Shown piece by piece: positions 238 to 29,807 of a DNA stretch of 40,623 nucleotides. Within the stretch, counting starts at the first letter, position 1, and each line of letters begins with the position of its first letter. A model generated the notes under the pieces. That model was not told where the DNA came from. It saw only the letters and a program-made list of their open reading frames with translations, and did not search any database. The translations under genes and the position numbers were made by a program. This DNA is from Candidatus Zixiibacteriota bacterium (lineage in GTDB: Bacteria; Zixibacteria; MSB-5A5; JAABVY01; JAHJOQ01): assembly GCA_018820315.1 (NCBI GenBank), contig JAHJOQ010000090.1, forward strand, positions 1 through 40,623, given 5' to 3'.

Positions 238-1740
238 ATGCAGATCATCAGTATATCGCGGGGTAGCCAGTCCGGGGGAACAGAATTCGCCACAGATCTT
301 GCTAACAAGCTTGGATACGAATGCATAAGTAGGGAAGATCTTCTGGAGGAGGCGACTCGGCAAAAGATCCCGGTGGGCAAGCTCGAGACTTCCATCGTCA
401 AACCACACATATTCTCAGAACGTCTGGCAATCGAGTTAGAGCACTACAAGGCTCTGGCCACGTCCATTTTGTGCGAAAAAGCCCTCGATCACGATATCAT
501 ATATCACGGCCGCACCGGCCATCTGCTTCTACCGGGCGTAGACAATGTCCTTAGAATAAGAGTGGTCACAAGTGACGAACAACGGATAGCGTCGGTCATG
601 AGCCGACTAAATCTTTCGCGAAATAGGGCTAAGCAGTATATCGAGGCGGTCGAAGAGGACAGGAGAAAGTGGGTCAGGAAGTGTTACAATGTGGAATGGG
701 ACGTGTTCACGCTGTACGATGTTGTATTGAATCTGAGTCAGGTGCACCCAGCCAATGCCGCAGCTGCAATCTGTTCCATGGCACAACTGCCGGAATTTCA
801 GTCTACCCCGGCATCAAGAAGCGCTCTCCGGGATTTGCTGCTAGCAGCTAGGGCACGGTTGGCACTGCTCCGGGATGACAAGACGAGACCGATGAACCTG
901 AAGTTAATGGCGAATAAGGGCGTCCTGCATGTAACTTACAGCTTTCAGCACGTTGATGATACGGATGCAATCACAGGTGCACTGCACTCATTGACCGGCG
1001 CCACAGAGATCGTCTGCACAGAAGCACAGAGTAATATTCTCTGGATTCAGGAGAGTTTCGATCCTGATGACAGCGCGTACGGAGACGTGCTATCGCTCGC
1101 CAATTCATGGGACGCCGCAGTAGAAGTCATCAAGATGACACCGGGAGAAGATTTTGCTCGATATCCAGTCAGGAAGGAGATCGCCAAAGAGGCCCTTGGA
1201 TACTGGCTCGAGACGGGCATTATCGATGAAGTCGAAGAGTTGAACGATGGGGATCCGACCGACATCTCCAGAGTCTACGAAAAACTGATAACAGACGGCA
1301 GAGCAGGAGGGAAACGGATCATTGAGGGATCGCGAAAGACTCTGCTCAATGCCATTGATCGCTCCAGAGACTACCGGCTGATCGTGTTAGATAACATGTT
1401 TCTCTCAAAGACAACGGATACACGGAAGCATATGACCCAGGAATGGGTTAATGCGCTGTCCGAATCACTGAAAACTCCTGTGGTATCAATGAAGGAAATT
1501 CAGCAATTCTATCGCTTTGGAGCTAAACAGGTTTTCAGAATGGCTTTTTTTGCAATACTAAGTGCGTTGATTCTCGCTGCGATATTTCATTTTGACGATC
1601 AGATTATGGCGCTGTTGATGCGCGAAGGAACATCTTCAAGAATTCTGGCGACAACATGCATCGTTATCTTCATTCCGATCTTTGCATATGTATATAGCTC
1701 CGCCGTCGGATTGTTCCTGCGGATGATACAACTTGATTAG
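238..1740 (+). CDS. Membrane-anchored cytidylate-kinase-like protein with BON-like domain
   Basis: A 500-residue protein. Residues 1-190 match the cytidylate-kinase-like family (Cytidylate_kin2): the N-terminus has ISRGSQSGGTEFA where a P-loop would be, and YHGRTGHLLLPGV follows near residue 90. The classical Walker A Lys is absent, as is usual in this family. Residues about 195-275 resemble a BON domain. Residues about 285-430 match nothing I recognise. Two hydrophobic segments (about 435-455 and 465-490) should anchor the C-terminus in the inner membrane. The start is ATG with a weak GTGAGG site 4 bases before it. The gene is followed 18 bases later by a TauE/SafE permease, then a response regulator and a sensor kinase, all on this strand. 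The paralogue at 4846-5679 lacks the middle and membrane parts. A nucleotide-sensing or signalling role coupled to the permease is inference. Confidence 0.75.
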   Translation: MQIISISRGSQSGGTEFATDLANKLGYECISREDLLEEATRQKIPVGKLETSIVKPHIFSERLAIELEHYKALATSILCEKALDHDIIYHGRTGHLLLPGVDNVLRIRVVTSDEQRIASVMSRLNLSRNRAKQYIEAVEEDRRKWVRKCYNVEWDVFTLYDVVLNLSQVHPANAAAAICSMAQLPEFQSTPASRSALRDLLLAARARLALLRDDKTRPMNLKLMANKGVLHVTYSFQHVDDTDAITGALHSLTGATEIVCTEAQSNILWIQESFDPDDSAYGDVLSLANSWDAAVEVIKMTPGEDFARYPVRKEIAKEALGYWLETGIIDEVEELNDGDPTDISRVYEKLITDGRAGGKRIIEGSRKTLLNAIDRSRDYRLIVLDNMFLSKTTDTRKHMTQEWVNALSESLKTPVVSMKEIQQFYRFGAKQVFRMAFFAILSALILAAIFHFDDQIMALLMREGTSSRILATTCIVIFIPIFAYVYSSAVGLFLRMIQLD

Positions 1741-1758
1741 CTACGTGGTGGAGGAACG

Positions 1759-2829
1759 ATGGAAGATCTGTTAATACATATTACGACCGGGTCAGCAATC
1801 CAGATTATTATTCTTGGATTCATCGGAGGTGTGCTGAGTGGTTTTATCGGAAGTGGCGGAGCCTTCTTCATGACACCAGGGATGATGAATCTGGGCGTTC
1901 AGGGCATCATGGCGGTCGGATCGAATATCACTCATAAATTCGGCAAGGCTCTTGTGGGGTCACGGAAGCATGGCGAGCTGGGACACGTCGACAAGAAGCT
2001 CGGTATCTTCATGTTGATTACCGCAGTGATTGGGATCAGACTGGCAGTATGGGTATCGAGCGCGCTTTTTGGCATCAGCGACACCCACGGCGAGAAAGGT
2101 GCTGCTGCAAACTTGTACATAAGCACCGTATTCGTGGTAATTCTGTCCGGCGTGGCAATCTCGATGGTCCTGGATGTCTTGAGGTCAAGGAAGGAGAGCG
2201 ACACTGGTCCCTCCAAGAAGATAAGCGGCTTTCTTTCGAAGCTGCGACTCTTCCCTATGATCTATTTTCCAGTTGCTGATGTCAGAGTCTCTTTGTGGGC
2301 ACTGCTTTTGGTTGGATTGTTCACCGGATATCTTGCCGGAACGATTGGAGTCGGCGGATTTGTCGGTGTGCCGGCCATGATATATGTCTTCGGCGTTCCA
2401 GCTGCTGTCGCGGCGGGCACGGAGCTGTTCCTGGCAATGTTCATGGGTGCATTCGGTGCAATAAACTACGCCTTTCTCGGATTTGTCGATATACGTCTTG
2501 TGGTGCTGCTGTACATCGGATCTTTACTCGGAATCTTCGTCGGGGCGTACGGAACCAAGGTGGTCAATGAAGTAGTCATCAGGCTCGTGACCGGTATCAT
2601 CATTCTCCTGTGTGTTATCAGTCGTGTCATCGCTATTCCCATTTATCTGGCACAGTTGAATATGATTGGTTTTGTGGAACCATCGCAGTTCCCACTCCTC
2701 AACGATATCAGCAAGTATTTCCTTTACATCAGCGGGATCGGCGGCGTCACTGTGATCCTGATACAAGTAATACGGGCGTACATACGCAAGAGACGGGTTT
2801 ACGCTACGATCGTTACAAGAACCGAATAA
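1759..2829 (+). CDS. TauE/SafE (TSUP) family permease
   Basis: A 356-residue polytopic membrane protein of the sulfite exporter TauE/SafE family, which moves sulfite, sulfonates or other small organic acids across the inner membrane. About eight hydrophobic segments are visible. The two family repeats both have a Gly-rich helix: GGVLSGFIGSGGAFFMTPG near residue 25 and GYLAGTIGVGGFVGVPAMI near residue 195. The loop after the first, with SNITHKFGKALVGSRKHGEL, is typical of the larger TSUP members. A GGAGGA site (1750-1755) sits 3 bases before the ATG. The gene lies between the kinase-like protein and the two-component genes, with short gaps, so it is probably co-transcribed with them and may be their signalling partner. 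The substrate cannot be read from the sequence. Confidence 0.88.
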   Translation: MEDLLIHITTGSAIQIIILGFIGGVLSGFIGSGGAFFMTPGMMNLGVQGIMAVGSNITHKFGKALVGSRKHGELGHVDKKLGIFMLITAVIGIRLAVWVSSALFGISDTHGEKGAAANLYISTVFVVILSGVAISMVLDVLRSRKESDTGPSKKISGFLSKLRLFPMIYFPVADVRVSLWALLLVGLFTGYLAGTIGVGGFVGVPAMIYVFGVPAAVAAGTELFLAMFMGAFGAINYAFLGFVDIRLVVLLYIGSLLGIFVGAYGTKVVNEVVIRLVTGIIILLCVISRVIAIPIYLAQLNMIGFVEPSQFPLLNDISKYFLYISGIGGVTVILIQVIRAYIRKRRVYATIVTRTE

Positions 2830-2853
2830 TGTCATTGCAGGGAGGTATGGCTT

Positions 2854-3231
2854 ATGAGCAGCCGTGGCCTTGATATTTGCATCATTGATGATGAGATTGT
2901 GGTTTGCAAGAGGCTCCAGCAGTATCTGAGTAAGATAGGTTACTCGGTGGAGACGTTTGTTGACAGTCAGACCGCCATTGGCCGTATAAACGAGAAGCGA
3001 TTCGACATTGTCGTAACTGACATCCGCATGGACAACATTGATGGGATGCAGGTCTTGAACCACATCATGGAAAAAGGAGAAAGCACAAAGGTCATTCTCA
3101 TAACTGGCTACGCAACGATCGAAATCGCCAGGGAAGCTCAGGCCAAGGGAGCCTTCGACTTCATTTCAAAACCGTTCAGACCCCAGGACCTGAAAGAGGT
3201 TATCGACCGGGCCGCACAACTAGCAGGATGA
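2854..3231 (+). CDS. Single-domain response regulator (receiver only)
   Basis: A 125-residue CheY-type receiver domain with no output domain. The acidic pocket (D12, D13), phosphoacceptor D56 in VVTDIRM, switch T84 and conserved K106 in FISKPF are all present, so it should be phosphorylatable. A strong GGAGGT site (2841-2846) precedes the ATG. The stop is separated by one base from the start of the histidine kinase gene, so the two are almost certainly a cognate pair. With no DNA-binding domain, the output is likely protein-protein, perhaps onto the permease or the kinase-like proteins; that is inference. Confidence 0.93.
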   Translation: MSSRGLDICIIDDEIVVCKRLQQYLSKIGYSVETFVDSQTAIGRINEKRFDIVVTDIRMDNIDGMQVLNHIMEKGESTKVILITGYATIEIAREAQAKGAFDFISKPFRPQDLKEVIDRAAQLAG

Positions 3232-3232
3232 G

Positions 3233-4849
3233 ATGAACAAGAACAGATCTGGAAAGAACTCCCTTTCCGAGATACTGCAGAACAATCTGACGTCTGCTTC
3301 TTCCGAGGCCAGCTCTGACTCAGAGGAGACCAGGATAAAGCAGTCGCTTCTTGAACGCCCTCGTTTTACTGTCAAAGCAAGACTCACACTCATTTTTGTT
3401 ATCTTCTTTATCATCAGCGCCGCAGTTTCCGTGGCTGCGATGCTTATGCTATCGATGATCAATGATCGCGTGCAATTCGTGTCGCTGGCTGACAAGTTCG
3501 CCAACGAGATTCAATCTGCAAGACGCAGCGAGAAGAACTACTTTCTTTATGATTCCGACCTGGAGGAGGTGAGGCAACACGTCGACAGCGCCAACCACAT
3601 ATTGCGGCTTGCCGCGCTGGAATTGGGACACGTTGTCGGACGTCAGGAGATAGACAGCTTGCAGGAATACTTGACAAATTATGAGGTTCTCGTTGATACA
3701 ATTCTCTCTCATGGGAACGATCCAGCATTCAAGGAATCGGAGAGCTTCAAGAGTGTATCGCAGTCTCTGAGAAGTTTCGGTTCCCAGATGCTTCAATTGT
3801 CCCTGGACGTCTCCCGCCAGGAACGACTTCTCATCTCCGGGACGATCGCCAATGCGAAGCGAGTTCACATTGCTCTGCTTGCTGTACTCCTGGGTTTCTC
3901 GGTTTTCATGGCGTCGTATATATCACGGCACATAATCTCGCGTCTAAGCAGGCTCATGACAGCTACACAGCGGTTTGCCAGCGGTGATTTTCTGCCGATT
4001 ACACCGAAGCGCAAGTATCAAGACGAATTCTCGTATGTAGCAATCGCGCTGAACCATATGATGTACGAGTTGAATCGGAGGCAGAACATACTCGTCGAAT
4101 CACACAAGCTCCGCGCGATCGGTAACCTTACAGCCGGGATAGCTCACGAGTTGAACAACCCTTTGAACAATATCATCTTGACATCAGAAATGCTCAAGGA
4201 AGGTATTAAGGACCTCTCTGACGAAGAACTTGCGGATATGATCAATGACCTGGTTACGCAGGGTAGGCGCGCAGAACAGGTCGTAAAGAACTTGCTTGAC
4301 TTCGCTCGCGAGAGTGAAACTAGCTCGGAGCACCTGCACATTGAGACTCTGATAGAAGATACAGTCCGTCTCGCGAAAAACCAGATTAAATTGAGCGGAA
4401 TTGAAATCAGCGAGGAGATTCCGGAGAATCTGCCCCCGATATACGGCGATAGAAAGCTTCTTGTCCAAGTTCTTCTCAACTTACTGCTGAACGCGATCGA
4501 TGCGATGCCGGATGGCGGATCGCTCAAGGTCAGGGTGGCTCCGGAAGCCAAGACAGGATTTGTTTCTATTCATGTTTCCGACACTGGATGCGGTATTCCT
4601 GGTCACATTCTCGGATCAATCTTCACTCCGTTCTTCACGACCAAACCGACCGGCAAAGGTACCGGTTTAGGTCTTGCAGTGTCAAAGGGCATAATTGAGA
4701 AGCATGGCGGCAGCATTGAGGCGGATAGTAAATTAAACGAGGGGACCACGGTTACCGTGCACCTGCCGATTGTGCCAATCCCGGCGGACATCACCGATGG
4801 GCATAGTCAATCGAAGGAACACAATTCATCGAAAGGAAACGACAATTAG
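3233..4849 (+). CDS. Membrane sensor histidine kinase (HAMP-HisKA-HATPase)
   Basis: A 538-residue orthodox kinase. A Ser/Glu-rich cytoplasmic N-terminus of about 50 residues is followed by TM1 (about 51-75), an extracytoplasmic helical sensor of about 135 residues resembling a four-helix bundle, TM2 (about 211-232) and HAMP (about 233-285). The HisKA H-box GIAHELNNPLNN has phospho-His H305. The HATPase domain has N-box LLNAIDAMPDGG, G1 DTGCGIP, F-box FTPFFTTKP and G2 GKGTGLGLAVSKG. The NNPLNN sequence is NtrB-like. The start lies one base after the response regulator stop. The C-terminal end overlaps by 4 bases the end of the convergent kinase-like gene. It probably senses a periplasmic signal and phosphorylates the adjacent receiver. 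Confidence 0.95.
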   Translation: MNKNRSGKNSLSEILQNNLTSASSEASSDSEETRIKQSLLERPRFTVKARLTLIFVIFFIISAAVSVAAMLMLSMINDRVQFVSLADKFANEIQSARRSEKNYFLYDSDLEEVRQHVDSANHILRLAALELGHVVGRQEIDSLQEYLTNYEVLVDTILSHGNDPAFKESESFKSVSQSLRSFGSQMLQLSLDVSRQERLLISGTIANAKRVHIALLAVLLGFSVFMASYISRHIISRLSRLMTATQRFASGDFLPITPKRKYQDEFSYVAIALNHMMYELNRRQNILVESHKLRAIGNLTAGIAHELNNPLNNIILTSEMLKEGIKDLSDEELADMINDLVTQGRRAEQVVKNLLDFARESETSSEHLHIETLIEDTVRLAKNQIKLSGIEISEEIPENLPPIYGDRKLLVQVLLNLLLNAIDAMPDGGSLKVRVAPEAKTGFVSIHVSDTGCGIPGHILGSIFTPFFTTKPTGKGTGLGLAVSKGIIEKHGGSIEADSKLNEGTTVTVHLPIVPIPADITDGHSQSKEHNSSKGNDN

Positions 4850-5679
4850 TCGTGACCGAAGGTGCCTTTGCTCAGCCGATCGGTTGTGAGGCTGATATTG
4901 ACTTGGCATGCAGTAACACCTTTTACCTGAGAGGCAATCGCTACAAACGCATCCCGCACTTTGCTGTCTTTGACCGTGCCGCGCAAGGTAACAACGCCAT
5001 TATTCGCTGCAACTGTTATCGGGATGTTCCACATCTTGTCATCTGAAGCTAATGCCGCCTTGACTTCACAAACCAGCGAAAGGTCTTCAAGCCCGCGAGC
5101 GGCTTCAGCGCTTGTTCTGAATTCCGGACGACCCACAGTCAGTGCAACAATCTCGCATATCGTATCTATCGTCATGTTCTCAGTGCTGAACGAAATATCA
5201 TAGAGAGAGGGATCGCGCCAGTTCTCACCGCAGACATACTTGACCCAGAGCATTCTCTGCTCATCGATCTTGGCGACGTAATAGCTTGCCTCGTCGTAGT
5301 TCTTACCAGATTCCTCCATAACTGCCCTTACTCGTTCTTCCAGAGGTGCATAGAGATGCACTTTCAGAACATGCCTGATTCCTCTCAGAAAGAGCTGACC
5401 AGCGAACCCGTGGTATATGATGTTATCTTGTTTCACGGCATCGATTAGTGAACACTGAAGGAAAATCTGATTTCGCTCGTGTTCACGCGTCAACTTCTGC
5501 CATAATCCGGGAGATTTTTCAAGTTGTCGAAAGAGATCCTCTGCCATGATGTTGTACTTCTTTGCCCCTTCAAGAACCACTTCCCGATTCTTGCAGGTGT
5601 ACTCCAACCTTTCCGACAATTGCTTCGCCAGCTCTGCCCCACGACTTTTTATGCCTCTGGAAATAGTAATGATTGCCAT
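4846..5679 (-). CDS. Cytidylate-kinase-like protein with C-terminal BON domain
   Basis: A 277-residue soluble paralogue of the protein at 238-1740. Residues 1-190 form the cytidylate-kinase-like part, with ISRGIKSRGAELAKQL at the P-loop position, again without the Walker Lys, and YHGFAGQLFLRG near residue 90. Residues about 205-270 are a clear BON domain containing VAANNGVVTLRGTV. BON domains usually bind membranes or phospholipids or act as interaction modules. AGGAG precedes the ATG by 7 bases on the minus strand. The gene is convergent with the histidine kinase and their stop codons overlap. Having two such paralogues flank a permease and a two-component pair suggests one functional unit; the biochemical activity is unknown. 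Confidence 0.78.
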   Translation of the reverse strand: MAIITISRGIKSRGAELAKQLSERLEYTCKNREVVLEGAKKYNIMAEDLFRQLEKSPGLWQKLTREHERNQIFLQCSLIDAVKQDNIIYHGFAGQLFLRGIRHVLKVHLYAPLEERVRAVMEESGKNYDEASYYVAKIDEQRMLWVKYVCGENWRDPSLYDISFSTENMTIDTICEIVALTVGRPEFRTSAEAARGLEDLSLVCEVKAALASDDKMWNIPITVAANNGVVTLRGTVKDSKVRDAFVAIASQVKGVTACQVNISLTTDRLSKGTFGHD

Positions 5680-6401: not shown

Positions 6402-6426
6402 GTCGAATCCCTGCCTCTCCGCTTGA
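6402..6426 (+). repeat. Partial copy of tRNA-Ser 3' end (att-like relic)
   Basis: The bases GTCGAATCCCTGCCTCTCCG followed by CTTGA match the T-arm and acceptor end of the tRNA-Ser gene at 7379-7467 plus its first downstream bases, with one T missing. Such copies are left where an element integrates into, or is lost from, a tRNA 3' end. The similarity to the 6690 copy continues about 35 bases beyond the tRNA-derived part, suggesting a shared ancestry outside the tRNA. Confidence 0.6.
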
Positions 6427-6516
6427 TTTGTCGTGGCTCCTGTAAGATTATCCTAGACATAGACTTATGATCTCGCACATTGGGACTATGAAGTTCGTGT
6501 GCCCAGTTGTGAGTAA

Positions 6517-6627: not shown

Positions 6628-6689
6628 CTACGCTCATCATCGTGTCGGTGCGCGGCACAGTGGTAAGCGGGAGCGTGATGGTTGTGTCA

Positions 6690-6704
6690 GCCTCTCCGCT
6701 TGAT
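6690..6704 (+). repeat. Second partial copy of tRNA-Ser acceptor end
   Basis: GCCTCTCCGCTTGAT repeats the acceptor end of tRNA-Ser and its flank. The following bases (to about 6742) align loosely with those after the 6402 copy, including AAGATNATCCT. Two such scars 288 bases apart suggest repeated integration or duplication. Confidence 0.5.
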
Positions 6705-7094
6705 TCATCAAGCTACCATTAAGATCATCCTGACACAAAGACAATCTCCTCCCGGTCATGCCAAACCTGCAGAATCACCGCCTAACCCAATGCTCCACCT
6801 ATCGACTTTGCGCTGGCAGGAGGCAGTCAGCTGAAGTGCTGATGGCGGAGCTATCTCTACGAGCATAGTTCTGAAAAAAGTCTGAGTGGTGTGGAGTTGG
6901 AGTAAGACTTCAGAAGCAATACAGCCAAGCGGAGTAGATGGATAAATCAGGACGGTGGGGGTTCAGAGTTATCAGTCTGCATGACCCTTGAGGAACTGGA
7001 TATCAGTTCGAGTACATTCCACGAGTTGCGTTGGGAGTATCACGAATCTCTGAGCAATCTGACACCGACTGATGCCTGTGTGGGAAAATCAAAA

Positions 7095-7168
<74 letters not shown>

Positions 7169-7378
7169 ATTGCAATCGATCAATTTACCGCAGGAGAGAG
7201 TTATGTCAAGTTTTTTTTCTGAATGCCGTTGCTCTCGAGTGAGTGGTCTTGTGCATTTGGACATTGCCGTCATTACGATATATCATCACCTGATCGGAGC
7301 AGCAGATTGTGGTTGAATGTCTTTGCTCTATGCATATATTGATAAAACTTTTCCTAAGAAGCGGAGAAGTTGCTCATC

Positions 7379-7467
7379 GGAGAGGTGTCCGAGTTGGTCG
7401 AAGGAGCGCGCCTGGAAAGTGCGTAGGCCCCAAAAGGGTCTCCAGGGTTCGAATCCCTGCCTCTCCG
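7379..7467 (+). tRNA. tRNA-Ser (anticodon GGA)
   Basis: An 89-base class II tRNA. Acceptor GGAGAGG pairs with CCTCTCC (7460-7466), with discriminator G. The anticodon stem CGCGC/GTGCG encloses loop CTGGAAA, giving anticodon GGA for UCC and UCU. A long variable arm (TAGGCCCCAAAAGGGTCTCC) is typical of serine tRNAs, and the T-arm is GGGTTCGAATCCC. CCA is not encoded. An integrase remnant begins 106 bases downstream and truncated copies of the tRNA 3' end occur upstream, so this gene was probably an integration target. Confidence 0.96.
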
Positions 7468-7572
7468 CTTGAATTCTTTCTAACAAATTATTACCCCCTA
7501 TCTTACAGAAAGTTATTGACACAAAGTTCTCCGCTAGTTGGAGTTTCTAACAGAATTCTCACAGGAGAACAC

Positions 7573-7797
7573 GTGGCAAGCATTCAATCCAAGCGCTCAA
7601 AGTCCGGGAAAAAGACATTCTACGTCGTAGTTTCCCTCGGCACAAAGCACAAATGGATCAAGGCCGGTTCACTCCAGGACGCCAAGATTCTCAAGAAGAC
7701 TATCGAGGGAATGGCTGAGTCAGAGCGCCTGGACAAGCTCGGGATTTCTCCGAGAGAGAAGCGTATTGACGATGTCTTTCAAGAATATCGGGACAGT
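7573..7797 (+). pseudogene. Tyrosine integrase, N-terminal remnant
   Basis: A GTG start with AGGAG 5 bases upstream opens a frame whose first 75 or so residues look like the arm-binding and early core-binding part of a phage-type tyrosine recombinase: SIQSKRSKSGKKTFYVVVSL, then SLQDAKILKKTIEGM and ISPREKRIDDVFQEYRD. A full integrase has about 350-400 residues, including a catalytic R-H-R-Y domain; all of that is missing. At about 7798 the frame passes directly into an ABC-ATPase C-terminus. Position immediately downstream of tRNA-Ser, in the same direction, is the classical layout of an integrated element. Confidence 0.7.
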
Positions 7798-8139
7798 GAG
7801 CGAGGTCTTGCGCTGTCTGGAGGAGAGAAACAGAGAGTTTGTCTTGTGCGAGCAATACTGAAGGAACCTCCGATCTTCATTCTTGACGAAGCGACTTCGG
7901 CCCTGAACTCGAAGTCTGAGTATCTCATACAAGATTCTCTGACAAATATACTGAGTGACAAGACTGCTATAATCATCGCCCATTGACTGTCCACCGTTCA
8001 GCATGCAGATAGAATCATAGCGATCGACAAGGGCAAGATCATTGATGATGGCATGCACTCGGAGTTGCTTGAAGGATCTTCGTTTTATCGGGAATTGGCT
8101 ATGAATCAACTGACGTTGCAGTTGCCCGAATCTAACTAA
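7798..8139 (+). pseudogene. ABC exporter ATPase, C-terminal remnant with nonsense codon
   Basis: The frame shows the ABC signature LALSGGEKQRV, Walker B IFILDEATSAL, D-loop and H-loop IIIAH, then a TGA stop (7984-7986), then LSTVQHADRIIAIDKGKI and a typical exporter end to TAA at 8137-8139. In intact family members the residue after the H-loop His is Arg (AHRLST), so TGA most simply arose from CGA by one transition. Walker A, the Q-loop and the membrane domain are absent because the sequence is fused to an integrase remnant. It is a double relic: truncated by rearrangement, then interrupted. Confidence 0.8.
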
Positions 8140-16908: not shown

Positions 16909-19758
16909 ATGAGAGTGCGCACTTTACAACCTGTGGTGTCGGTGGCACTGATGCTTGCGCTTTGCGCGATCCTATCCATGCCTCTCTCCAATGCGGAAGC
17001 AGGCCAGCGCGACTGGTCCATTGTGGCGACGTACACCATACCAGAGGGGGCATCAGGGCTTGCCTGGGACGGTTCTTATCTTTATTGCGGCATCTATGGA
17101 GCCAACGGCAATCAGGTCTACCGGATAGACCCGTCGACCGGTGACTATACGCTTCTTACTACCGGACCTCAGGAGGATGCCTTCGGATTGACATTCGATG
17201 GAACGTATCTCTGGACAACAGATCATGCGGGCAGCAGTTCCGATCCGGCAGTCGCTCTGCAATTCAACATGAGCGGCGGACTGGTGTCACAGTTCAACCT
17301 GCCAGATCACTATATGTCCGGCATTGCTTACGACGGTGGCGATTTCTGGGTAGCCACATATTATCCTGACCCGGCGACTATCTACAAGGTCAATTCATCA
17401 GGCGTCGTACTCGATCAGTTCACTGCTCCCGACAATCAGCCGTGGGATTTCTGCATTGAGAATAGTAATCTATGGATGGCCGATTATTGGGGGGATGCAC
17501 TCTACTTGATTGATCCATCAGATGGAAGTCTCATCGAATCGCACCCGAGTGATGGTGTCGATCCGGCTGGAATAGTGTGGGACGGACAGTATTTGTGGTA
17601 CTGTGACAATGGTGCCGACTATGCCTTCGATTATCTCTACAAGGTCGATCTGTCCGGCAGCGGAACACCCGCGATCTCATTTCCCTACACACAGCATAAC
17701 TATGGAATCGTGACGGTCGGATCGCCGGGGACCTGGAATGCGACGGTTGAAAATGTTGGCACCGACAACCTTGTCATCACCGGCGTCTCCTTCTCCGGCT
17801 CAGTGGATCTGTCTTGCACCTCCACGTTCCCATTAACTCTGCTGCCGACCGAACAGGCGCAGCTGCCGATTGTCTGGTCGCCTCTCGATTTTGGCGCACT
17901 TGACGCAATTGCAACCGTCGAATCGAACGATCCTATCAATCCGTCATCCGATCTTACTCTGACCGGCAATGCCGTATATCCCGGAGCTGATATCTATCTT
18001 GTGGAAACTCTGCACGACTATGGACAGGTGAGGCTCAACGCGAATACTCGATGGTTCATGGTCATCGAGAACCGTGGCGATGCTGTCCTGACGATTGACG
18101 ATGTCTACTCTGATAACAGCCGCTTCATTGTAGACAAAGATCTTGAATTCCCGATTGATATTGCAGTGCTGTCGTCTGAGCAGATCGGTATCTGGTTTCG
18201 CCCCGATGCTGTGGGTGGATTCAGCGCGAGTTTGACGGTTAGCAGCAATGATCCCGATGAAAATCCGCAGGGCGTTTCAATCCAGGGAGAAGGCATCGAC
18301 ATACCGTATCCCTACGGCGCCGGCCTTTGGGAGTTCACAATCACAACCGACAACTATGATAACAGCGTCAAGGCGATTGCGCCGATTGAAGATATCAATG
18401 ATGATGGCGTCCCAGATGTTATTATCTGCTCAGAAGATGACTACATCCGTTGTTTCAATGGCAACGCTCATGCCCATGGTGATGTTCTCTGGGAGCACTA
18501 CATATATTCCGGATCAGTTTACTCGCAGGTAGGATTAGCGATAATGGATGATATCGACATGGATGGATTTGATGATGTTGTTGTCGGATCAGCCTGGGGT
18601 GGCAAGCTCATCCGAGCCTTGTCCGGTCTGACTGGTGAAGAAATCTGGACTCACTACACGAATGAGTACGGCGGCGGTGCATGGGTGTATCAGGTAGACT
18701 GCAGCTACGACTATAATGGCGATGACATAAGAGATGTGCTCGCATCGACAGGCGATGACGGTGACAACACCGGTCCCAGGCGTGTCTACTGTCTCGATGC
18801 ACTAACGGGAGTTTCTATCTGGGAGTGCCCGACAAATGGTCCCGGATTCTCCGTGATCGGTGTGGAGGATTTCACGGGCGACGGTCAGCCGGATGTCGTC
18901 GCAGGCGCTTCAGTCAATTCCGAGACTGAAGCGAGAGTGTATGGAATCAATGGAGAGACCGGCGGTATAGAGTGGACATTTTCGCCGACTGGATCATCGG
19001 TCTGGGCGCTGGGGCAGGTCGATGACTTCACCGGCGATGGCAAGAAGGACATTGTGGCAGGCGATTTCAGCTTCACAACAGGCAATCTCTATGGGCTCGA
19101 TGCTGCCGATGGCTCACAGGAATGGATTGAACCATCGGTCGGGTCTGTGATCAGGATCGAGATAATCGCTGACGCAAACGCTGACGGTCATCCTGACGTC
19201 ATTCCGGCACATACTTCGCCAACAGCGAAGGTAGTCGACGGACAAACGGGCGAAGTGATCTGGAGCCATCCCATCGCAGACAAACCGTGGTGTCTGGATG
19301 TTTGTCCCGATATCAGCGGCGATGGCATCGAGGATCTGATGGTCGGCACTCTGTACTCGAGCAACTATTGCTATTTCCTCAACGGCAAAGATGGATCTGA
19401 GCTTGAGGCGGTGTATGTCGGCTCACCGGTTGATGGACTTGCAGCCATTCCGGACATTGTCGGCGACGGTTCTTGGGAAGTGGTCGTTGGCGACAGAGAT
19501 GGTCATGTCTACTGCCTTTCGGGCGGAACTGAATCGCAAGTTGTTGTGTGTGGCGATGCTGATGGCTCGACCGCGATCGACATCGATGACGTTGTGTATC
19601 TGATAGCATACATTTTCGCGAGTGGTCCGGAACCGATCCCGCTTGTGTGCGTGGGTGATGCCGACGGTGCCGCAGGTGTTGATATTGATGACGTGGTCTA
19701 CTTAATCACGTACATATTCGCCGGCGGTCCCGCACCGGTCTCGAATTGCTGCGGGTGA
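16909..19758 (+). CDS. Secreted beta-propeller/FG-GAP protein with dockerin tail
   Basis: A 949-residue exported protein. The signal peptide covers about residues 1-31. Residues 35-245 form a propeller-like repeat region (SGLAWDGSYLYCGIYG, GLTFDGTYLWTTDHAG, GIAYDGGDFWVATYY, GIVWDGQYLWYCDNG). Residues about 260-465 hold two ASPM/SPD-2/Hydin-like Ig domains of the choice-of-anchor-D kind. Residues about 475-880 carry FG-GAP/PQQ-like blades, with repeated DINDDGVPDVI, DIDMDGFDDVVVG and DFTGDGQPDVVAG calcium loops. The last 67 residues are two dockerin-like repeats (GDADGSTAIDIDDVVYLIAY and a second copy), ending in NCCG. GGAGGTG precedes the ATG by 4 bases. Its job is probably extracellular adhesion or structure; no catalytic motif is seen. 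Confidence 0.88.
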   Translation: MRVRTLQPVVSVALMLALCAILSMPLSNAEAGQRDWSIVATYTIPEGASGLAWDGSYLYCGIYGANGNQVYRIDPSTGDYTLLTTGPQEDAFGLTFDGTYLWTTDHAGSSSDPAVALQFNMSGGLVSQFNLPDHYMSGIAYDGGDFWVATYYPDPATIYKVNSSGVVLDQFTAPDNQPWDFCIENSNLWMADYWGDALYLIDPSDGSLIESHPSDGVDPAGIVWDGQYLWYCDNGADYAFDYLYKVDLSGSGTPAISFPYTQHNYGIVTVGSPGTWNATVENVGTDNLVITGVSFSGSVDLSCTSTFPLTLLPTEQAQLPIVWSPLDFGALDAIATVESNDPINPSSDLTLTGNAVYPGADIYLVETLHDYGQVRLNANTRWFMVIENRGDAVLTIDDVYSDNSRFIVDKDLEFPIDIAVLSSEQIGIWFRPDAVGGFSASLTVSSNDPDENPQGVSIQGEGIDIPYPYGAGLWEFTITTDNYDNSVKAIAPIEDINDDGVPDVIICSEDDYIRCFNGNAHAHGDVLWEHYIYSGSVYSQVGLAIMDDIDMDGFDDVVVGSAWGGKLIRALSGLTGEEIWTHYTNEYGGGAWVYQVDCSYDYNGDDIRDVLASTGDDGDNTGPRRVYCLDALTGVSIWECPTNGPGFSVIGVEDFTGDGQPDVVAGASVNSETEARVYGINGETGGIEWTFSPTGSSVWALGQVDDFTGDGKKDIVAGDFSFTTGNLYGLDAADGSQEWIEPSVGSVIRIEIIADANADGHPDVIPAHTSPTAKVVDGQTGEVIWSHPIADKPWCLDVCPDISGDGIEDLMVGTLYSSNYCYFLNGKDGSELEAVYVGSPVDGLAAIPDIVGDGSWEVVVGDRDGHVYCLSGGTESQVVVCGDADGSTAIDIDDVVYLIAYIFASGPEPIPLVCVGDADGAAGVDIDDVVYLITYIFAGGPAPVSNCCG

Positions 19759-24932: not shown

Positions 24933-27900
24933 CTATCTAATCAGCTTGCTCATAGGCGGCGGACCGCCGGTGAACATGAAATCGTACAGATGCTGCGCGT
25001 CAGCCGTATTCACAGCGTCATCGCAATTGACATCGCCGAGATAGACAAACGGACACGGCGGACCGCAATTGTCGGCCGGGCTGTAGACATATCTCGCTAA
25101 GTGAGTCAGATCGAGCAGATCAATCAACCCGTCGTTGTTGATATCACCACGACCATAACCCGCCCATTGGTTTGCGAATCGCATCAGGTCGGTGATCTCG
25201 CCGACAGTTGCGCCTGTTGGGAATGCAAAAACAACGAATGCACCCTGTATAGTTTCATAACCGGCGAATGAGTGCTTATTCGCGGTCAGGATCATGCACA
25301 TGTCATCGGGCGGCGAGCCTGGAGCAGCGTTTGGGCCATAGGCAATATTGTAAGGACCTGTTGCCTTCACGTACTCTATGAACAGGTGATGGAGGTAATC
25401 GGTAGGATACCACCAATCGAAATGGAACCCGTAGCCATTGTAAGCGCCTTTCGTGGCTGATCCAACTGGATAGACGAAACTGCCGCTCATCGGAAGGATG
25501 CCGTATCCTGCAATCTCGCCTGAGACTTCATTGTACTGCCACATCGCGCTGGCACTCAGGTCGCCGTAAACCTGTTCGTATCCTGCCGGGTCACCCGGCA
25601 TATCCCAGTCAGCAAAGACTCCCCAATAGAGACTGTCCACAGGCGTTGAGTTCCGATTGCTGAAGTCGTAAGCAATTAACTTGAAGTTGTTGAAGTACTC
25701 CGTGCCGCTTTGAGAGAACGCTCCGTATTCCCTGTATACCATTCGCATTCCTATCGTAAGGGAATCGGAAGGATCGCCTGTAATATAGTCGTAGATTGAA
25801 TCGATCACAGCAGCACTGAAGAAGTCACCATATATGTTGGTGCCATCGCAATACTCGTCAAGCATGATGTTGTCGTGGCTTGTGCACACTGTGTCTGGGA
25901 AGAGGTGGTTGTAACCCTCGCTGCACTCCTCAAGCCACGCCAGTCGGGTTGCGCTCAAACCCCACCAAAATGTTCCCAGATACAGCGGGTCAGCCATACC
26001 GTCAACTATGAAGGCATCGTCAATGTCGCCGTTGTCAAACCATCCGCCATTATTGGCATATTCCCAATCATCTCCGCCATATCCAAAATCGAGATAGAAG
26101 TCACAGAACGCATAGCCTACAATAGCTTCGATTACGATCCTTGCGTTAGCTTCGAGGCCACCGCATGACGGTAGAGACGAGGGGCATTCGTTGTAGTCTG
26201 GGTCATCTGTTGCAACAATGAGATAGAATAGACTCGAGCCGCGAAGCATATTCGGCACATCAAACTCGAGGATCGCGTCGTAGCATTCTGTCGCTGAAAG
26301 CATGCCTGTTGCCGAAGAGGCGAGTGTCACCCAGCTCGGTGGACCCGATAGGCTGAAGTCAGATTGCTTTACCTGCATTACGCGATCGGCATATTCAGAT
26401 TTCAGAACTGAGTGATTCTGCATCCGCGCCTCTTTCCATCCCTGCATCGCATTGAAGTCATCAATTGTGTGCTGCACCATTTGATCGGTTGACTTATCGG
26501 CTCTCGCCTTAACTTGCGGGTCAATCGTTGTGACAAACGCAGTCGCCGGATAGTCAGCGTGAGCTTCGAGTAATAGACAGTATTCTAGCGGCGCGCATCC
26601 ATAGTTGCAGAACACTTCCTCGACTGTTCGCTGCGTTCCAGCCGGATCGCTGAAGTCTAGCGGCGGATCGAGTACTACTCCGCCGGGGATGTCGAGCCTC
26701 GGGCGATCATCACCTATGGAATACATCGTCAGCCTTCCGCCGCCGGTGCCGCAGTCAGACCAGAGCTGTAGCTGTGCGATATACGGCGTGTCACCATACT
26801 TGGCGATAGCGGGGCCGAAACCGTAGCCAGTAAGTTCATATGTGAAGATGTGCGCTCCGGTGATAGCATTGTTACAGTTAAATGTTCCGTAAGGGGGTAC
26901 ACGCGTTCCCCAGAAGACTAACGGATCGCAGGTCAGCGCAGCGGCGTTGGTCATCTGTCCGCGGGTGACATCCCACCACGTGGCGTTGTTGTCCCAGTAG
27001 CTTCGACACCAGATACCGGCGTAGCGGCTGTCTTTGCTGGGTACTGCGCCGTGATACCAAAGCTCCGCTGCGTCAAAGACTGCCGCAGGGGCATAGAACG
27101 GCTGACCTGACAACCAGTATTGATCAGTTGCAGGCGTACCGTCGGCGGCGTCAATGGACATCGCATAGCTGTCAAATGAAGTATGATCTGCCATCGCCAG
27201 ATTCGTGAATAGCCAATTCTTCGATTCGCTATAAGTTGCCCCGGCGGTTGTACCTTCATTCCAACCGAGAAGTCCTGAGAATCCGCCCTCGGGCCAGTCG
27301 GGATGCAATTCGAGGTCCGTGGCTCTCAATTTGTATACTGCTCCCACGGTCGCACCAGGGCCCGCATCGCCGCCATAGAGGCCTTCTGCACATCCAATGA
27401 ACAGGTCGACACCGTCCGATGACGGTGAATTCCAGATCGGATTGCCGTGAGGGGTGTAGCGCCAGACGTCGGTGACACCGGTGAACTTGTCGAGCTTGTA
27501 TATCGTGCCGCCATCTCCACCGAAGTAGATGAAGTCGCCAAGGATAACAGTCGGGCAGAAACGCATCTGACCAGCTGTACCTTCGAGGCCGGTGCCGAGA
27601 ATCGGACTGCGATGCCAGATAACAGCTCCGGTAAACGCGTCAGCACACACCATCGATTCAAACGTACCGCCTCCGAAGTATATCAAGCCGTCTTGAACTG
27701 TCGGGCTGCTACGTACGGCACCGCCGATAATGCTCGAATACAGCGGATCAGCGGTCAACGTGCTCCATACCGAAACCGGACCGCCGGAGCCGTCCCCCTC
27801 AACCGTGAAACATTCGAGATGCACTCCGAATGAGGCATAGACGAGGCCATCTGCAATCGTCGGGTTCGCGAAATAGCAAAAATCATACGGCGACCAGTAT

Positions 27901-29807
27901 TCCCAGATCTTCTGGAAACCGCAAAGATCACCGATTTCGATCTGACTATCACCAGTACGAGCGTAGTCGTGAGAGAGTGTCGGCCACTCACCCTCGTCTA
28001 CACATGGATATGTTGGCGGGCATCCTACGAGGCAACATGTTCGAGCCTTCATAAGAAATGCGACGTCGAGGCTCCAATCCTCGATCATCGTATACCAGTT
28101 GCCATCCCACAGACCGCCTCTGCCGGTTTCAGTAGAGCCGTCGTCGGAAATGACAGCCAGAACGTCATCCGGATCATTTAGAATGGGATTGAACCCAAGA
28201 TGGAATTCATCATAGATCCAAATGTGGTCGTCATAAATATCGATCATCTCATAATTCGGATACCAGTTCGTGATTTCCGGCACGGTGTAGACAGCGATTG
28301 TGTCCGTCGGGTAAGTCCCGTCGGTATTGAAGAGTATGAAGTCTGCGCCGGGATTACCGACCGATGCACCCCGATAGAATGCAATCCCGATCTCAGCTAT
28401 TTCGCAGCAGTTCTGCCATAGCATTGTGAATCGCATATTGTAATAGGCATCGCCGTATTCGTCGGGTAGCACCCAGTAGTAGAAGGCGTCTCCGTTGTAC
28501 TCCAATATGTAATTACATTCCGGCGGAGGAATGTCTTCCTCGCACACATACGCTTCGATAAGAAAGTCGTAATCGGTCCCCCAGTCATCGATCATCAGGC
28601 CCCAGTAACCGGACCAGAATTCAGAACTGCGATACTCGGCGTTGCCTGAACCATCGTCCGAAAGTACAGCCATTACGTTTCCAGCTGCCTGGTTGACCGT
28701 CGTATAGCCGACGTGGAAGTCCGTGTTCGGCGGGATGATAATGTCGTACGGCGTCAGGTCGACCTGAGTCTCGTCAGGATACCACAATATTTGAGAGGTG
28801 GGGATGTTTTCGGTAAGCAGAAGCTCTCCGGGAAATCCGTTTCCGTCATCCCACCAGATCATCAAGTCGATTCCTTCACCGGTGACATCGATCGAGCCTT
28901 CTTCATACAGACTAATTCCGGCAGTTCGGAGTTCGCGGGGCCAAATCATGTTGTTTGTAAATCTCTCGTTGAAGAAGTCATCGCTGTACTGATCGGGAAT
29001 TGTCCAGTAATAAGCAGCGGCGTAATTACCGTACTTCAGCCATGAGCATGGTCCCGGGTCACCGAAACATAACTCAGCCTCAATTACGAAGTTGACATCG
29101 AGTCCCCAGTCATTCAGCATCGTCCCCCACACGCCGGTGTAGTGCTCCGATGACCTACCGGTCCCAGTTGTCCCTTCGTCAGACAGTAGGGCATAGACAT
29201 CATCGGTTTGATTAACTGTTGTGAAGCCTATATGAAAATCTTCATCCATGAAAGTCAGATCGAAAGGAGTGAAGTCGACTGCAACTGCGTTAGGATACCA
29301 GGCCATTTCGGGGGCTGGGATATTGATCCGCGCAAGCTCGCCTCCGGGAAATCCGAAGCCGTCATCATGCCAGACTATGATATCAACACCATCCGGACTG
29401 ACCACCGAACTGGCTGCGTCGTAGAAACCGAGGTAGACATTTGCCAGAGTTGCAATCTGACCACTCGGTGCCGTGAAACGCATGTTGAAGAAATCATCGT
29501 CGTACACATCGGGAATAGTCCAGAACCAGAACGGAGTACCGTCCCAGTACGAATAGGTGTCACAACCTGTGGGCGCGTGACTGAATGTGCCGCTGACAAC
29601 CGCCTGCTGATCGGGCGTCGCTGTTTTGGTAAACTTCGGAGGCATCTCCGGAAGAGCTGAATTCAACTCGCCGGATGCCTTCGGAGCATCTGGTTGAGAT
29701 TGTGGTATGCGTTTTGCATCGTTCGGATCTTTGACGGCAAATGATGCACTGCTCGATGCCAGAAAAAGCCCGACGAGCAGGACAGCCAGAGTTACATTCC
29801 TCGACAT
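24933..29807 (-). CDS. Giant secreted repeat/PQQ-propeller protein with dockerin tail
   Basis: A 1624-residue exported protein (signal peptide about 1-24, ending SFA). Three copies of a domain of about 180 residues fill residues 70-600, each starting with a variant of YYWTIPDQYSDDFFNERFT and ending with NVMAVLSDDGS...GYWGLMIDDWG. Residues about 610-1080 contain PQQ-like propeller blades (GLIYFGGGTFESMVCADAFT, DFIYFGGDGGTIYKLDKFTG). A C-terminal region of about 450 residues is unrecognised. The end is a dockerin pair (GDINNDGLIDLLDLTHLARY, GDVNCDDAVNTADAQHLYDF) that belongs to a different sequence subtype from the DIDDVVYLI tails and lacks the terminal cysteines. GGGAGG precedes the ATG by 6 bases. 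A palindrome lies about 105 bases upstream. No catalytic motif was recognised. Confidence 0.87.
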   Translation of the reverse strand: MSRNVTLAVLLVGLFLASSSASFAVKDPNDAKRIPQSQPDAPKASGELNSALPEMPPKFTKTATPDQQAVVSGTFSHAPTGCDTYSYWDGTPFWFWTIPDVYDDDFFNMRFTAPSGQIATLANVYLGFYDAASSVVSPDGVDIIVWHDDGFGFPGGELARINIPAPEMAWYPNAVAVDFTPFDLTFMDEDFHIGFTTVNQTDDVYALLSDEGTTGTGRSSEHYTGVWGTMLNDWGLDVNFVIEAELCFGDPGPCSWLKYGNYAAAYYWTIPDQYSDDFFNERFTNNMIWPRELRTAGISLYEEGSIDVTGEGIDLMIWWDDGNGFPGELLLTENIPTSQILWYPDETQVDLTPYDIIIPPNTDFHVGYTTVNQAAGNVMAVLSDDGSGNAEYRSSEFWSGYWGLMIDDWGTDYDFLIEAYVCEEDIPPPECNYILEYNGDAFYYWVLPDEYGDAYYNMRFTMLWQNCCEIAEIGIAFYRGASVGNPGADFILFNTDGTYPTDTIAVYTVPEITNWYPNYEMIDIYDDHIWIYDEFHLGFNPILNDPDDVLAVISDDGSTETGRGGLWDGNWYTMIEDWSLDVAFLMKARTCCLVGCPPTYPCVDEGEWPTLSHDYARTGDSQIEIGDLCGFQKIWEYWSPYDFCYFANPTIADGLVYASFGVHLECFTVEGDGSGGPVSVWSTLTADPLYSSIIGGAVRSSPTVQDGLIYFGGGTFESMVCADAFTGAVIWHRSPILGTGLEGTAGQMRFCPTVILGDFIYFGGDGGTIYKLDKFTGVTDVWRYTPHGNPIWNSPSSDGVDLFIGCAEGLYGGDAGPGATVGAVYKLRATDLELHPDWPEGGFSGLLGWNEGTTAGATYSESKNWLFTNLAMADHTSFDSYAMSIDAADGTPATDQYWLSGQPFYAPAAVFDAAELWYHGAVPSKDSRYAGIWCRSYWDNNATWWDVTRGQMTNAAALTCDPLVFWGTRVPPYGTFNCNNAITGAHIFTYELTGYGFGPAIAKYGDTPYIAQLQLWSDCGTGGGRLTMYSIGDDRPRLDIPGGVVLDPPLDFSDPAGTQRTVEEVFCNYGCAPLEYCLLLEAHADYPATAFVTTIDPQVKARADKSTDQMVQHTIDDFNAMQGWKEARMQNHSVLKSEYADRVMQVKQSDFSLSGPPSWVTLASSATGMLSATECYDAILEFDVPNMLRGSSLFYLIVATDDPDYNECPSSLPSCGGLEANARIVIEAIVGYAFCDFYLDFGYGGDDWEYANNGGWFDNGDIDDAFIVDGMADPLYLGTFWWGLSATRLAWLEECSEGYNHLFPDTVCTSHDNIMLDEYCDGTNIYGDFFSAAVIDSIYDYITGDPSDSLTIGMRMVYREYGAFSQSGTEYFNNFKLIAYDFSNRNSTPVDSLYWGVFADWDMPGDPAGYEQVYGDLSASAMWQYNEVSGEIAGYGILPMSGSFVYPVGSATKGAYNGYGFHFDWWYPTDYLHHLFIEYVKATGPYNIAYGPNAAPGSPPDDMCMILTANKHSFAGYETIQGAFVVFAFPTGATVGEITDLMRFANQWAGYGRGDINNDGLIDLLDLTHLARYVYSPADNCGPPCPFVYLGDVNCDDAVNTADAQHLYDFMFTGGPPPMSKLIR

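Follow-up and report, generated by a model that had tools for sequence, protein, structure and literature searches.

A family of kinase-fold and BON-domain proteins linked to candidate sulfur-anion permeases in genomes with sulfate-reduction genes

Results

The 40,623-nucleotide (nt) contig JAHJOQ010000090.1 of a Candidatus Zixiibacteriota bacterium (assembly GCA_018820315.1), analyzed as a whole and hereafter called the window, carries at positions 238–5679 a cassette of five open reading frames (ORFs), all confirmed at the positions assigned by an earlier sequence-only reading of the same DNA. The forward strand encodes P1, a membrane-anchored protein of 500 amino acids (aa) identified by Pfam and an AlphaFold2 (AF2) model (238..1740); P2, a TauE/SafE (TSUP) permease of 356 aa (1759..2829; Pfam TauE 2.9e-36) that scores 125.8 bits on PF01925 against a cut-off of 32.6 bits; P3, a receiver-only response regulator of 125 aa (2854..3231; Pfam Response_reg 2.4e-29, 102 bits) with no output domain; and P4, a membrane sensor histidine kinase of 538 aa (3233..4849; Pfam HAMP, HisKA and HATPase_c). 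The reverse strand encodes P5, a soluble protein of 277 aa convergent with P4 (4846..5679; Pfam and AF2 model). The gaps P1–P2, P2–P3 and P3–P4 are 18, 24 and 1 nt, and the stops of the P4 and P5 ORFs share a 4-nt overlap. P3 and P4 have the receiver domain and the HisKA plus HATPase_c kinase of a two-component pair, and the translations retain the H, N and G boxes of P4, an intact kinase, together with the receiver aspartate and lysine of P3.

P1 and P5 are paralogues, and we use the name kinBON for full-length proteins that combine a Cytidylate_kin2 domain with BON. Both exceed the curated 28-bit cut-off of Cytidylate_kin2 (PF13189), P1 across aa 3–168 (244..741, + strand; 3.6e-31, 109.1 bits) and P5 at 5179..5673 (− strand; 1.7e-35, 123.2 bits). 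P5 also carries a Pfam BON domain (PF04972; 4894..5067, − strand; 3.7e-10, 40.4 bits, cut-off 27). P1 gives no Pfam BON match at that 27-bit cut-off, the best among 12 P1-like proteins being one at E 0.15, and its degenerate BON-like domain at about aa 190–270 (805..1047, + strand) is backed by alignment with P5 and by the predicted fold. The AF2 model of P1, made from a 12-sequence alignment (predicted local distance difference test (pLDDT) 82, predicted TM-score (pTM) 0.74), has four parts: the kinase fold, the BON-like domain, an alpha/beta domain at about aa 271–425 (1048..1512, + strand) that contains a low-confidence loop at aa 306–337, and two transmembrane helices at about aa 432–450 and 467–493 (1531..1716, + strand), with hydropathy peaks at 432 and 475. 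Foldseek matched the kinase part of P1 to PDB entries 3hdt and 3fdi, and the P1 model to universal stress protein (USP) structures 3tnj, 5ahw and 4wny (probability 1.00, TMt 0.55–0.60). The P5 model (pLDDT 88.7) lacks the alpha/beta domain and no USP structure is among its top 50 Foldseek matches, which assigns the USP match to the additional P1 domain. The structure matches also showed a fold common to CMP, shikimate and dephospho-CoA kinases, and the sequence matches included OsmY-type BON domains.

These analyses agree with the sequence-only reading in its list of parts: two cytidylate-kinase-like/BON paralogues (by Pfam and the P1–P5 alignment), a membrane anchor on one of them (by hydropathy and model), an enclosed TauE/SafE permease, receiver-only regulator and sensor kinase (by Pfam), and four near-contiguous genes met by a fifth at overlapping stops. 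That reading overlooked a USP-like domain in P1, as well as a kinBON–receiver fusion encoded elsewhere in the same genome.

A profile of the kinase-plus-BON region (A1), searched in 133 genomes of the window's phylum, identified 57 full-length kinBON loci covered in both kinase and BON parts at 214 to 366 bits. Ordinary Cytidylate_kin2 proteins were covered in the kinase part only, at 103 bits or less, and are separate from kinBON; two partial loci fell in between, a frameshifted copy in genome G129 (150 bits) and one at G099:C311 (121 bits). Type A proteins are P1-like, with the USP-like domain and membrane helices (12 loci in 11 genomes and six families), type B proteins are P5-like and mostly 265–300 aa long (22 loci), and type C proteins carry a receiver fused at the C terminus (23 loci, one of them, L004/L074, in the window's genome). 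Identity between the fused receiver and P3 is only 31%, so the two are not orthologs. A tree built from 71 kinBON proteins sets type A, type C and the PSE-linked members each apart by a branch with full support, and the SulP-linked kinBONs of two phyla group together at a branch supported at 100/99. Partner classes track kinBON clades (19 changes versus 45 when shuffled); the nearest relatives of P5 are at loci L050, L056, L053 and L057. A plasmid search returned a single weak match to the kinase part, and the viral contigs searched gave no kinBON match.

We compared ORFs neighboring kinBON genes with the window proteins and with Pfam-named SulP, PSE (PF03601), sat, aprA and aprB sequences. 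A TauE, SulP or PSE/YeiH permease is encoded within 6 kb of all 12 type A loci, 17 of 22 type B loci and 18 of 23 type C loci (47/57 in total), whereas none of 20 ordinary Cytidylate_kin2 neighborhoods of 10–14 kb includes a TauE, SulP or PSE permease. Every type A gene directly adjoins TauE, at a distance of 50 nt or less and in the same direction (12/12), and a phylum search with P2 gave 12 matches of at least 374 bits, P2 included, that are exactly the 12 partners of P1 (next match, 158 bits). The sequence-only reading had said that it would fall if the neighborhood were found in one genome only or if the paralogues occurred mainly without the permease and kinase; for the core, 11 genomes from six families share the P1–TauE pair, which is never separated, and most kinBON loci have a permease nearby. 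The exact five-gene enclosure does not generalize, the full order being intact in the window only. At one locus a BshC (bacillithiol synthesis) gene (L059:5362-7089) sits directly upstream of the genes for kinBON and a PSE permease.

The remaining cassette genes vary around this core, and P5 is the least constant of them. In genomes G089 (L037 and L056) and G097 (L038 and L050) the two halves of the cassette lie at contig ends, and joining them restores the window order. The order in G051 is P1–TauE–receiver (REC)–histidine kinase (HK), and in G116 and G122 REC–HK is divergent from P1–TauE. The sensor part of P4 recurs in eight genomes and adjoins kinBON in seven; the eighth copy (G091, L157) has a phosphoenolpyruvate (PEP)-synthase-like protein and a receiver as its neighbors, and a nearby ORF looks like qmoA on visual inspection. 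A PPDK_N/PEP-utilizer protein (842–851 aa, 31–53% identical) adjoins genes for a P4-type kinase and a receiver in three genomes (L041:12489-15020, L048:9157-11712 and L157:8344-10872) and is a possible sixth component. An Alph_Pro_TM (PF09608) protein is encoded between TauE and the receiver in TauE–kinBON clusters of two genomes (L048:7069-7854 and L049:8876-9643).

Type C clusters encode the kinBON–receiver fusion, a dCache HK, a receiver, a 220–235-aa protein without a Pfam match and a further receiver, with a SulP-STAS permease gene either closing the cluster or facing it. The example in the window's genome (contig C66, L074:5978-12940) runs from the fusion through the dCache histidine kinase, receiver, 228-aa protein and second receiver to SulP-STAS; this multi-receiver cluster is conserved at 23 loci in the phylum.

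Among the 133 genomes, aprB was detected in 48, clear dsrA/B matches in 53 and either in 55. All 38 genomes with kinBON, frameshifted G129 included, have aprB and/or dsrAB, and kinBON occurs in none of the 78 genomes that have neither (Fisher 2.5e-20). None of 20,000 permutations shuffled within families matched the observed association, a design that lessens the effect of relatedness without eliminating it. The family thus tracks dissimilatory sulfate metabolism, and the sequence-only statement that no known pathway combines these genes did not hold. Ordinary Cytidylate_kin2 proteins are weakly tied to the same genes (43/55 versus 37/78; Fisher 3e-4). Many type B loci place aprA–aprB–sat facing a Fer4/NarI-like membrane protein, a 103-aa protein, TauE and/or PSE and kinBON, with sat–aprB–aprA adjoining at L055, L058, L060, L061 and L064–L066, and three type A pairs lie 2–4 kb from aprA (L043, L045 and L047). 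The window genome (G000) encodes aprB with adjoining sat and aprA on contig C164 (L124), and dsrA with a second dsr gene on C65. Because sat, aprBA and dsrAB are present, its owner is probably a sulfate reducer, the other reading of the same genes being sulfur oxidation by reverse use. A DsrD search gave no match anywhere, controls included, and was not used as evidence. The sequence-only reading had also raised a nucleotide- or phosphate-responsive control of an anion exporter; control of an anion permease by a nucleotide-kinase-like protein is plausible, and phosphate is unsupported. No phosphate-transport or pho gene was among the neighbors identified, and the phosphate link was dropped.

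The Walker A motif GxxxxGK[ST] is degenerate in both cassette proteins (GSQSGGTE in P1, GIKSRGAE in P5), with threonine at the lysine position and glutamate next in P1, and alanine at that position in P5. Across the family, lysine occupies this column in one type A row out of 12 and in about 9 of the 35 type B rows; no matched type C row has it, and 18 of the 21 have aspartate or glutamate there. The type B rows with lysine are mostly from a second phylum and continue with E, M, K or A, not S/T. A loss of the Walker A lysine from every kinBON was considered and rejected on this column check. The best-conserved pocket residues are G91, R116, D139 and D161 (P5 numbering), a LID-like D-x-x-R motif is retained, and P1 and P5 score 30.9 and 25.6 bits on the CMP kinase equivalog TIGR02173, far under its cut-off of 102.1. 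As the Walker A lysine is unconserved and other pocket residues are best kept, we read kinBON as a ligand-binding fold; in P1, P5 and type C it probably lacks catalytic activity. In type C, each of the 21 aligned loops has a cysteine placed two positions ahead of the second glycine of the loop (GSYCHG; for example L074:5978-7186 and L070:7634-8863). Types A and B lack this cysteine, and we conjecture that it could confer thiol or sulfur responsiveness on the SulP-linked form.

A scan of genome contigs for close relatives of P1 found one locus, L006, in genome G133; the 52-genome phylum set of G133 is taken as the second phylum, and kinBON occurs in 10 of these genomes. Its neighbors there are SulP (L006, L098), TauE and ABC permeases (L101, L103), ABC permeases (L104, L105) or MFS (L099), and two diverged members adjoin AFOR or arylsulfotransferase genes. 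Transporter linkage persists in the second phylum and sulfur specificity is weaker. The arylsulfotransferase gene beside a diverged kinBON is at L108:8263-9714.

Elsewhere in the window, the 3′ end of a tRNA-Ser gene is repeated upstream, once over 27 nt at 96% and again in a shorter match (gene and repeats at 6403-6429, 6680-6706 and 7379-7475), in the manner expected of attachment-site remnants. An ORF at 7309-7986 overlaps the tRNA-Ser gene and terminates in an ABC ATPase fragment. Two large ORFs encode FG-GAP/BamB-like repeats with an Ig-like domain (16909-19758, 949 aa) and a protein with a dockerin-like end (24933-29807, 1624 aa).

Discussion

We read the cassette, with moderate confidence, as the control unit of a sulfur-oxyanion permease in a host with a sulfate-reduction gene set. 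We infer both the substrate and the direction of P2, which would carry a sulfur anion, for example sulfate or sulfite. P1, held in the membrane, would be a partner dedicated to P2; its nucleotide-kinase fold, in which the phosphate-binding loop is degenerate, is joined to BON-like and USP-like domains, and it probably binds a ligand such as an adenine nucleotide or adenylyl sulfate and alters permease activity. In this reading kinBON would dock on the permease and take up the signal of the HK–REC pair. P4 would sense a signal at the membrane and phosphorylate P3, and because P3 lacks an output domain and P4 is intact, phosphorylated P3 would have to work by contact or relay. The receiver–kinBON fusions at 23 loci, an argument from architecture, point to kinBON as the contact partner on which P3 probably docks, and the permease linkage suggests an end effect on transport. 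A broader proposal, which we regard as tentative and more doubtful, is that kinBON is a general, hitherto undescribed ligand-sensing subunit for sulfur-oxyanion permeases of at least three unrelated families (TSUP, SulP and PSE/YeiH), reading a nucleotide or adenylyl sulfate through its degenerate kinase fold, set by a separate or fused receiver, and gating transport in sulfate reducers as a sulfur counterpart of GlnK–AmtB.

Several observations weigh against control of a sulfur permease by kinBON. Ten of the 57 kinBON loci have no permease within 6 kb, some of them at contig ends, and P1–TauE often occurs without HK–REC nearby, the two being together on four contigs (in 6 of 11 genomes counting split contigs). 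Seventeen apr/dsr genomes have no kinBON, so the protein is not required for the pathway. The lysine in about a quarter of type B rows means that a non-catalytic role may fail for some members, and ordinary Cytidylate_kin2 proteins likewise lack the Walker A lysine. Second-phylum kinBON lies mostly by ABC, MFS or other genes, and sulfur specificity may not hold everywhere.

The clustering could also reflect co-regulation only, with the HK–REC phosphorelay controlling transcription of sulfur transport through another regulator and kinBON separate from it within a shared regulon. We consider this fairly unlikely: a relay is possible given the lack of a P3 output domain, the several receivers of type C clusters are in keeping with one, and REC–HK is divergent from P1–TauE in G116 and G122, but the fusion of a receiver to kinBON, even one that is not orthologous to P3, argues for direct contact, and P4-type sensors stand beside kinBON in seven of their eight genomes. 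It is improbable, in our estimate, that kinBON instead serves as a scaffold that positions or stabilizes the permease near the sulfate-activating enzymes through BON and its membrane helices, with no ligand sensing. The OsmY-type BON match and the type B loci that adjoin sat–aprBA and the Fer4/NarI-like membrane protein would suit such a role; that G91, R116, D139 and D161 are the most conserved columns suggests a ligand site.

Catalysis is a further alternative, with kinBON acting as a phosphotransferase on a nucleotide or sulfonucleotide and so feeding or clearing an intermediate of sulfate activation. The kinase fold, the D-x-x-R motif and the GxxxxGK loop of some type B members would allow this, yet we judge it very improbable, as the Walker A lysine is missing from P1 and P5, from every type A row except one and from each matched type C row, scores on the CMP kinase model are far below its cut-off, and receiver fusions and permease linkage suggest regulation. 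A chance neighborhood or hitch-hiking with no functional link could explain why the full five-gene order is intact on one contig only and is scarcely credible in the face of the 12/12 P1–TauE pairing in both directions, the 47/57 versus 0/20 permease linkage and the 38/38 phyletic match.

Sulfate uptake and sulfite release stand at the outset of a respiration that matters globally and is costly in ATP, and their control in sulfate reducers is poorly known. As a family confined within its phylum to apr/dsr genomes, kinBON provides a named candidate regulator of sulfur-respiration permeases, and by following three unrelated permease families it marks those that probably serve sulfur respiration. 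In the open-access literature searched, no paper brings together a cytidylate-kinase-like protein and a BON domain, and none joins cytidylate kinase, sulfate reduction and TauE/SafE. The parts belong to known families, and a regulator that combines them and is linked to permeases and receivers appears to be undescribed in that literature.

Comparison with known systems places each part in turn. P2 is a clear TauE family member among the TSUP permeases of sulfate reducers, whose functions could not be predicted in a survey of sulfate transporters in these organisms; the survey measures distances to sat, apr and dsr and mentions no kinBON-like partner (PMC5840216). SulP-STAS permeases are present in type C clusters, with the kinBON–receiver fusion and dCache histidine kinase added to them. 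The best sequence and fold matches to kinBON are Cytidylate_kin2 proteins (PF13189), among them the uncharacterized "putative kinase" structures 3hdt and 3fdi, which share its kinase fold and signature residues but lack BON; the ordinary copies in these genomes have a strict GSxGS loop and are not encoded near permeases. The middle domain of P1 shares the fold of universal stress proteins but does not match the Pfam Usp profile at E 1, and their usual ATP motif is not evident in it. In GlnK–AmtB and SbtB–SbtA, a nucleotide-sensing regulator is encoded with its permease. The cassette resembles these pairs solely in its proposed logic, in which a permease gene is accompanied by that of a ligand sensor; they handle ammonium and bicarbonate, and the cassette differs from them in using another fold with no PII domain (no Pfam P-II match in P1 or P5), in its proposed sulfur anions, and in an additional input through a receiver.

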